Positions 48,834 through 52,962 of a stretch of 64,000 nucleotides of DNA are shown here, in pieces (the first letter of the stretch is position 1; every line of letters begins with the position of its first letter). This stretch comes from an uncultured Wenzhouxiangella sp. (GTDB lineage Bacteria; Pseudomonadota; Gammaproteobacteria; Xanthomonadales; Wenzhouxiangellaceae). The notes under the pieces are model-generated. The model did not search any database. It saw only the letters and a list, made by a program, of their open reading frames with translations, and was not told the origin of the DNA. A program made the position numbers and the translations under genes. Location of the stretch: NCBI GenBank assembly GCA_913057195.1, contig CAJXNL010000002.1, forward strand, positions 108,307-172,306, written 5' to 3'.

Positions 48834-49610
48834 CTAGCCGCATTTTGAATAGCCGCAGGCCAGGCATGTTTGGCAACCGTCCAACAGCACCATCGCTTTG
48901 GTGTTGCACTTATGACACAAGGTGGCGCTTGCGGGGAAAGCATCGGCTGATGAACCAGTGGATGGGCCTACACCCGCGGCTGGATCATGGGCTGTTTTTT
49001 TTTCAGCCGCCTCGCTCTCAGCCACCGCGCGTTCTCTGGCCTCCACCTCGGCGCGTTTTTGCTCCAACATCAGAAGCTGCTGCTCACTGAGTTCATCGGG
49101 CTCGAGTAATCCAATGCGCCGCAGGTGATGTTCAACCACGGCCCCGATGTCCGCCACAATGGAGGGAACGAACCGGCCGCCGGGCTTAAAATAGCCGCCC
49201 TTGGGATCGAACACGGCCTGGAGCTCCTCAGACAAGAAGGTCACATCGCCGCCTTTTCGAAACACCGCCGACATCACACGCGTCAGCGCCACGATCCACT
49301 GAAAGTGGTCCATGTTTTTTGAATTGATGAAAATCTCGAAAGGCCGACGCTGTTCGTGTTCCGTGCCCGCGTTCAGCACAATGTCGTTGATCGTCACGTA
49401 AAGCGCATGGTCATCTAAGGGCGTTCTGATTTTATAGGTGGCCCCTTCCAGGCACTCCATCCCCTCGGGACGCTCCAGCTTCTCATGCATCCGAATGATT
49501 TCGGCTTTTTGCGGCGATGCCTCGGTCGAAGCCGGTACCGCCGCCGCATCGGCGCTTTTTTCTTCACCCACCTGGTAATTGATGATTTTTTTATCGATTT
49601 TAATGGCCAT
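48834..49610 (-). CDS. nrdJb: NrdJb: C-terminal (TSCPD/Cys-rich) part of a split class II ribonucleotide reductase
   Basis: TSCPD-like domain and Cys-rich terminus CHKCNTKAMVLLDGCQTCLACGYSKCG; adjacent to NrdJa. Confidence 0.9.
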   Translation of the reverse strand: MAIKIDKKIINYQVGEEKSADAAAVPASTEASPQKAEIIRMHEKLERPEGMECLEGATYKIRTPLDDHALYVTINDIVLNAGTEHEQRRPFEIFINSKNMDHFQWIVALTRVMSAVFRKGGDVTFLSEELQAVFDPKGGYFKPGGRFVPSIVADIGAVVEHHLRRIGLLEPDELSEQQLLMLEQKRAEVEARERAVAESEAAEKKTAHDPAAGVGPSTGSSADAFPASATLCHKCNTKAMVLLDGCQTCLACGYSKCG

Positions 49611-51775: not shown

Positions 51776-51810
51776 GCCCTAACCTCTTGATTATGCTGTT
51801 GCGACAATGG

Positions 51811-51819
51811 TTATCCACA
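51811..51819 (+). promoter_or_regulatory. DnaA box TTATCCACA (exact consensus) upstream of nrdJa
   Basis: TTATCCACA read directly. Confidence 0.75.
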
Positions 51820-51833
51820 GGTTATGCATGCGC

Positions 51834-51842
51834 TCATCCACA
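51834..51842 (+). promoter_or_regulatory. Second DnaA-box-like site TCATCCACA (1 mismatch)
   Basis: Same orientation, 23 bp from the first; overlaps the proximal NrdR box. Confidence 0.5.
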
Positions 51843-51853
51843 ACCTGTTGTGT
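51838..51853 (-). promoter_or_regulatory. NrdR box (proximal) CCACAACCTGTTGTGT
   Basis: Imperfect 16-bp palindrome fitting acaCwAtATaTwGtgt. Confidence 0.7.
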
Positions 51854-51869
51854 ATATCTTCCTGGGGCA

Positions 51870-51885
51870 ACACAATATCTTGTGC
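51870..51885 (-). promoter_or_regulatory. NrdR box (distal) ACACAATATCTTGTGC
   Basis: Close match to NrdR consensus; starts 32 bp (about 3 helical turns) from the proximal box. Confidence 0.8.
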
Positions 51886-51954
51886 TACGCACCTACTCTA
51901 CTGACAACGATGTGAAGAATCAAGTCGGGCGACTCAATTAGGAATGAAATAGTG

Positions 51955-52962
51955 TTATTCGGGTTTTTGAGCGCGATCAAGCAGGACCTCAACGCCTTTG
52001 GCTGGGCGCCAGCCTCGGTGCACAATCCCGTGGACTTGTTCGGTGATCGGCATGTCGACTCCGCAGCGATCGGCCAGGCGCATGGCCTCTTGGGCGGTGT
52101 TCACGCCTTCAACCACCTGCCCGATCTCGGCAAGCGCTTCGTCCACGCCCTGCCCGCCACCCACCATCAGCCCAAAGCGCCGATTCCTGGACAGATCGCC
52201 GGTGCAGGTGAGCACCAAATCCCCCACCCCTGCCAGCCCAATTAGGGTCTTGGTCTGCGCGCCCAGCGCTTCACCCAAGCGGATCATTTCAGCCAAACCG
52301 CGGGTGATCAATGCCGCTCGGGTGTTCAAACCCAACCCCAACCCATCCGCCAGCCCGCACGCCACGGCGATGACATTTTTGAGCGCGCCACCCAATTCCG
52401 CACCAATTAAATCGTCGGTGTAGTACGCCCTGAAAGCCTCGCCATGCAGCCGGCTGGCCCACAGCGCACCAAACGTGGCATCGCTGGCGGCCACCGTCAC
52501 CGCAGTGGGCAAACCGCGCGCCACTTCATGGGCAAATGACGGCCCACTGATCAACGCCATGGGCCGCTGATCGCCCCCCATGGACTGAGCCACCTCGTGC
52601 AAAAACCGCCCCGTTTCAGGTTCAAAGCCTTTACACGCCCACGCCAGGCCCGCCTCGGGCCGAAGCAGGGGCAACAGCTGGGTCAGGGTCGGGCCAAAGG
52701 CATGGCTGGGCGTGGCCAGCAGCACATCCGCCGCCGAGTCCACCGCGATGGCCATATCCGCGGTGACCATGATCTGATCAGGCAGCTTGACATCGGGCAA
52801 ATAGCGGGCGTTGACGCGATCACGCTGAATCGTCTCGGCATGCTCAACAGAGCGCACCCACAGGTGCACCGAGTGACCCAGCCGGGCCAGCTGCAAGGCC
52901 AGCGCTGTCCCCCACGCACCGCCCCCAAGCACCGCCAGCGGCGAATCACTCATCTGCGGCAT
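51955..52962 (-). CDS. gpsA: NAD(P)-dependent glycerol-3-phosphate dehydrogenase
   Basis: LAVLGGGAWGTALALQLA; GPSFAHEVARGLPTAV; GAELGGALKNVIAVACGLADGLGLG. Confidence 0.97.
   Translation of the reverse strand: MPQMSDSPLAVLGGGAWGTALALQLARLGHSVHLWVRSVEHAETIQRDRVNARYLPDVKLPDQIMVTADMAIAVDSAADVLLATPSHAFGPTLTQLLPLLRPEAGLAWACKGFEPETGRFLHEVAQSMGGDQRPMALISGPSFAHEVARGLPTAVTVAASDATFGALWASRLHGEAFRAYYTDDLIGAELGGALKNVIAVACGLADGLGLGLNTRAALITRGLAEMIRLGEALGAQTKTLIGLAGVGDLVLTCTGDLSRNRRFGLMVGGGQGVDEALAEIGQVVEGVNTAQEAMRLADRCGVDMPITEQVHGIVHRGWRPAKGVEVLLDRAQKPE

Follow-up and report, generated by a model that had tools for sequence, protein, structure and literature searches.

Gene content and layout of the nrdJab locus

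The window, a stretch of 64,000 nucleotides from an uncultured Wenzhouxiangella sp., carries on its minus strand the two genes of a split ribonucleotide reductase (RNR) downstream of gpsA. The gap between gpsA and the first RNR gene contains a putative promoter, two NrdR boxes and a row of DnaA boxes, as listed below.

48834..49610, minus strand: nrdJb, 258 aa, the C-terminal part as a separate protein with TSCPD domain and CxxC tail; PF12637
49631..51775, minus strand: nrdJa, class II (B12-dependent) RNR catalytic subunit, 714 aa; TIGR02504 580 bits, PF02867 423 bits
51783..51788, minus strand: Shine-Dalgarno AAGAGG, 7 nt before the ATG; TCAAGAGGTT conserved in relatives
51811..51819, plus strand: DnaA box 1 TTATCCACA (anchor, consensus); TTATNCACA in 32/33 relatives
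51822..51830, plus strand: DnaA box 2 TTATGCATG, the weak central box, spaced 2 bp from box 1 and 3 bp from box 3; TT conserved
51834..51842, plus strand: DnaA box 3 TCATCCACA; mean 6.3/8 matches at +23 in 21 relatives
51838..51853, minus strand: proximal NrdR box ACACAACAGGTTGTGG with a non-canonical AG at its centre; about +36 to +51
51870..51885, minus strand: distal NrdR box GCACAAGATATTGTGT; about +4 to +19, core invariant among relatives
51895..51900, minus strand: predicted -10 TAGAGT (family form TANNGT); conserved columns
51918..51923, minus strand: predicted -35 TTGATT, 17-bp spacer to the -10; CTTGA columns conserved in relatives
51955-52962, minus strand: gpsA, the gene upstream of nrdJa

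The gene had been described preliminarily as a split class II RNR, and its domain matches bear this out: an NrdJ_Z catalytic subunit is accompanied by a separate TSCPD/CxxC subunit, and nrdJb aligns with positions 582-759 of the undivided enzyme model NF006417. In the assembly containing the window (1.78 Mb, 29 contigs), PF02867 was matched by nrdJa alone, giving one RNR catalytic gene. Searches of the same 1.78-Mb assembly for a class I small subunit and for NrdD found neither, and nrdJab is the sole RNR found in it. Both candidate regulators are encoded in the genome. The existence of an NrdR, without which the preliminary description would have failed, was established by a 179-aa ORF adjoining a glyA-like gene (PF22811, E 2.4e-21). 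DnaA, with a standard DNA-binding domain (PF08299 4.0e-33), is encoded by a 452-aa ORF beside dnaN and contains the motif GRDHTTVLHA. Perfect DnaA boxes flank dnaA in the dnaA-dnaN and rnpA-dnaA gaps (G000:C10:19930 and 21460; L136), where the region of origin and autoregulation is expected.

In G009, G019, G022, G023, G027, G028 and many class members, an in-frame insertion of ~350-400 aa splits NrdJa after about residue 323 (ORFs of 1090-1140 aa, some of ~1530 aa or more). These insertions are probably inteins at one site; the nrdJa of the window has none.

Promoter geometry and NrdR boxes

The conserved sigma-70-like promoter places the predicted transcription start site near 51888. Relative to this position, the NrdR boxes would lie at ~+4 to +51, the DnaA boxes at ~+47 to +78 (box 3 at ~+47 to +55 and the anchor at ~+70 to +78) and the ATG at +114. 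The DnaA element, earlier described as part of the promoter, sits downstream of the likely promoter and not upstream, in the leader. A promoter scan picked 51790-51817, over the anchor DnaA box; this candidate was judged unlikely, and TTGATT-17-TAGAGT was preferred on conservation.

The two NrdR boxes, claimed previously at 51838-51853 and 51870-51885 and 32 bp apart from start to start, were located at exactly these positions. They are palindromic 16-bp boxes separated by a 16-bp linker that is kept in relatives, within the 15-16 bp that define an NrdR promoter; written out with its AG centre, the proximal box reads CACAACAGGTTGTG. The strict motif CACWANNNNTWGTG had exactly two genome-wide matches, both in the nrdJab promoter (20 for the reversed pattern), so that by this motif nrdJab is the sole NrdR target. 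The distal box was retained in all Wenzhouxiangellaceae-type upstream regions, with a proximal box 32 bp away in nearly all and always at that distance where both boxes were strict. The GGTTG beside the anchor was considered as a third NrdR half-site and discarded, as its outer TG is unconserved and the middle DnaA box fits the flank better.

The arrangement resembles that of the class Ia nrdAB operon of E. coli, in which the true NrdR pair lies in the downstream promoter region and likewise includes an AG-centred downstream box; a pair without this non-canonical box binds NrdR ~50 times more weakly (PMC12176259). The nrdJab genes of Pseudomonas aeruginosa also encode a split class II RNR that is repressed aerobically by NrdR through NrdR boxes (PMC4409342), but DnaA is unmentioned in PMC4409342 and PMC5738425, and AlgR control is described instead (PMC5738425). 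At many other gammaproteobacterial nrdJ genes (L141-L220, L025-L089), two strict NrdR boxes stand 155-190 bp apart, and a strong partner at 31/32 bp, as seen in the family to which the window belongs, is missing; such wide spacing may reflect looping or two promoters.

An array of DnaA boxes overlapping the proximal NrdR box

Two DnaA boxes had been noted before, at 51811-51819 and 51834-51842, the latter overlapping the proximal NrdR box. Both lie where claimed, and box 3 shares 5 bp (51838-51842) with the NrdR box. Their description as two separate boxes did not hold, since the weaker TTATGCATG at 51822-51830 fills the gap and completes a head-to-tail array of three on the plus strand (51811-51842), TTATCCACA-gg-TTATGCATG-cgc-TCATCCACA (9-2-9-3-9). 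The array contains at least two boxes of the same orientation 2-3 bp apart, one of them near consensus, in a conserved register. ChIP-seq in E. coli showed that DnaA binding in vivo requires box pairs 2-3 bp apart, nrdA and nrdD included (PMC11317965). The match to this spacing rule is the strongest reason for reading a putative DnaA element here in place of a lone 9-mer.

When offsets from the anchor were scanned in 21 relatives, +23 (6.3/8) and +11 (4.5/8) scored best of the 119 tested, against a background of 2.06 matches of 8 (SD 0.87). The third box lies at +22 in six relatives, giving a spacer of 2 or 3 bp. In one relative (L022), an 11-bp insertion results in a four-box array that keeps the register, TTATCCACA-ac-TTATCGACC-gcg-TTACTCACA-ag-TTTTTCACA, the last of which again falls on the NrdR box. 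Several relatives have a degenerate box 3 (up to three mismatches, in L017), and conservation of the NrdR/DnaA overlap therefore falls short of that of the anchor. The pattern of two boxes, TTATNCACA-N13/14-TNNTNCACA, had a single match in the window genome, at nrdJ; over 61 genomes it had 25 matches, 19 of them directly upstream of nrdJ, and the reversed control had one.

Comparable arrangements are known. The DnaA boxes of E. coli nrdAB are likewise 2-3 bp apart, one consensus and one weak (PMC11317965, PMC8203912). The E. coli class III operon nrdDG, which is NrdR-controlled, has upstream of it a DnaA double box with a 2-bp spacer, tTTAAGAACAggTTATCCACAg (PMC11317965); it differs in RNR class, and no overlap of NrdR and DnaA boxes was found reported for it. 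Low-affinity DnaA arrays of the oriC type share the head-to-tail order, the 2-3-bp spacing and an adjoining strong anchor, whereas the nrdJab array is located in a gene leader.

Elsewhere in the genome, an inverted perfect DnaA box pair with a TTGCCCACA partner was observed at G000:C1:14734-14756 (L001, L139 about 4735), in an intergenic region beside an exonuclease-I-like gene. It is possibly a second DnaA regulatory or titration site.

Conservation among relatives and recurrence across the class

Conservation was assessed in 22 distinct Wenzhouxiangellaceae-type nrdJ upstream sequences (33 after 11 were added), the named close ones being Wenzhouxiangella. TTATNCACA was present in 21 of the 22, against a shuffle mean of 0.13, and in the set of 33 all four bases occurred at the N of the gene-side DnaA box. 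The anchor motif served to align the sequences, a selection of little effect because only one relative (L109) is without the anchor. On a tree of nrdJ coding DNA from 16 taxa of the same layout, the anchor showed no changes at its eight informative positions and four at the degenerate N, compared with 5.1 changes per site in the gene-side flank, 8.0 in the 3-bp spacer and 3.65 at third codon positions. The proximal NrdR box had 0.79 changes per site, compared with 6.3 in the linker between the NrdR boxes. The relative without the anchor (L109/G035), a family member of another genus, has the NrdR boxes and lacks the DnaA array, indicating that over that time scale a lineage can do without the DnaA part.

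Beyond the family, the exact TTATCCACA was found in 12 of 78 other gammaproteobacterial nrdJ upstream regions (0.23 expected), and nine of those 78 had the box together with a tandem partner of at least six matches in eight (0.035 expected). Among the tandem cases were Alkalilimnicola ehrlichii and Ectothiorhodospiraceae, whose DnaA boxes follow the NrdR boxes and precede the start codon, as well as L025, which has three good DnaA boxes. An even class-level draw of 80 more gave nine exact boxes (0.33 expected) and nine tandem forms (0.11 expected). Putative tandem DnaA sites at nrdJ, as judged by motif, thus recur across the class in a minority of cases. A lack of conservation in close relatives would have counted against the earlier proposal; the boxes are conserved there and recur in others. 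The idea that the array appears where a class I RNR is missing found no support: seven NrdB-positive congeners (G006, G008, G012, G013, G016, G020, G026) keep the anchor, and order members without NrdB (G050, G053, G058) lack the array.

A probable compound operator and its alternatives

These features probably represent a compound NrdR/DnaA operator in the nrdJab leader that links the sole RNR to replication initiation, most likely through competition with NrdR at the overlap. The preliminary description had already read the region as an NrdR/DnaA switch on a class II RNR, and the encoded NrdR and DnaA and the conservation of the boxes lend support to this putative role. Gene identities, site positions, spacing and the single RNR are the observations it builds on; from them we infer binding by NrdR and DnaA, the start site, mutual exclusion and the sign of the DnaA effect. 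Points against this reading are the weaker conservation of the overlap, the absence of the array in L109/G035 and the position of the DnaA boxes beyond the predicted start, which differs from that in E. coli nrdAB.

Transcription would start near 51888 from the sigma-70-type promoter. When dNTPs are plentiful, an NrdR tetramer carrying dATP plus ATP/ADP would occupy both boxes and block transcription; dATP-dependent repression by NrdR is established in other species (PMC12176259, PMC4409342). DnaA would nucleate at the consensus anchor and, by way of the weak middle box, reach the third. At box 3 it would share five bp with the proximal NrdR box, and the two proteins could therefore probably not occupy the overlap together. 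The output of the cell's only RNR would in this way be coupled by DnaA to initiation, most likely in competition with NrdR. In E. coli, DnaA activates nrdAB at low and represses it at high DnaA-ATP (PMC8203912). A bolder version, in which NrdR and a DnaA-ATP filament compete for one half-site, so that the sole RNR would read the ratio of dNTP sufficiency to initiation potential, is put forward tentatively; such a replication-licensed derepression switch would have arisen repeatedly on class II RNR genes.

A serious rival, to which we nevertheless give a distinctly smaller chance than to the compound operator, is repression by DnaA in its own right, alongside that by NrdR. RNA polymerase would then meet a DnaA-ATP oligomer as a roadblock in the leader, or its clearance would be blocked, and the NrdR overlap would be incidental. 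Every DnaA box lies downstream of the predicted start, DnaA roadblocks within transcribed regions are described in work cited in PMC11317965, and repression of E. coli nrdAB at high DnaA-ATP is known (PMC8203912). An independent roadblock, however, would not need the array to end on the NrdR box, as it does in nearly all relatives, even where spacers have changed or a box has been added. Since the bases are shared, direct competition between NrdR and DnaA is the most economical reading.

It is very unlikely that the locus serves to titrate or reactivate DnaA, in the manner of datA or DARS, and is found at nrdJ by coincidence. About four places in the genome, this one among them, combine a consensus box with a good tandem partner, but the recurrence of tandem boxes at nrdJ in other lineages, in different geometry, points to gene regulation.

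More improbable still is that the conserved leader reflects an RNA hairpin (ACAGGTTG..CAACCTGT) or another RNA element in place of DnaA sites. The inverted repeat ACAGGTTG..CAACCTGT lies within 51786-51848 on the minus strand, between the proximal NrdR box and the anchor, and the leader of the window folds stably (z = -3.25; ~10 pairs). The hairpin or attenuator was rejected, as the pairing is not maintained: arm changes are mostly unmatched (A-C, C-A, G-A, C-C), clean compensatory changes are absent in relatives, and hairpins arise from the NrdR palindromes alone. A riboswitch was rejected too: in a comparison of the leader with Rfam no family, the cobalamin riboswitch included, reached its gathering score. 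That NrdR alone matters and the DnaA boxes are chance or drift is the least credible explanation, since the eight informative bases and the 11-12-bp register are selectively conserved, even though other lineages retain NrdR boxes without DnaA boxes.

Relation to known control of ribonucleotide reductases

The putative nrdJab operator is a new version of the known NrdR/DnaA control of E. coli nrdAB. Unlike nrdAB, it serves a class II enzyme that is the cell's sole RNR, and its DnaA array, of three (or four) boxes, follows the predicted promoter and start and overlaps the proximal NrdR box. A title-level screen of the open literature turned up no paper in which DnaA controls a class II RNR; the links described concern class Ia, class III and proposals for Caulobacter and Bacillus RNR genes. 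Such control has been demonstrated mainly for the E. coli class Ia enzyme, and binding of nrdD by DnaA was shown recently. The strongly conserved array on a sole, B12-dependent RNR suggests selection for a link between dNTP supply and initiation at whichever RNR serves replication, and dNTP supply and replication start probably meet here at one switch. With one RNR and one operator whose two regulators share bases, nrdJab offers a simple system for the interplay of NrdR and DnaA, which the three RNRs of E. coli make difficult to disentangle there. The spacing data also lend the 2-3-bp double-box rule derived from E. coli ChIP-seq an independent line of support from evolution.
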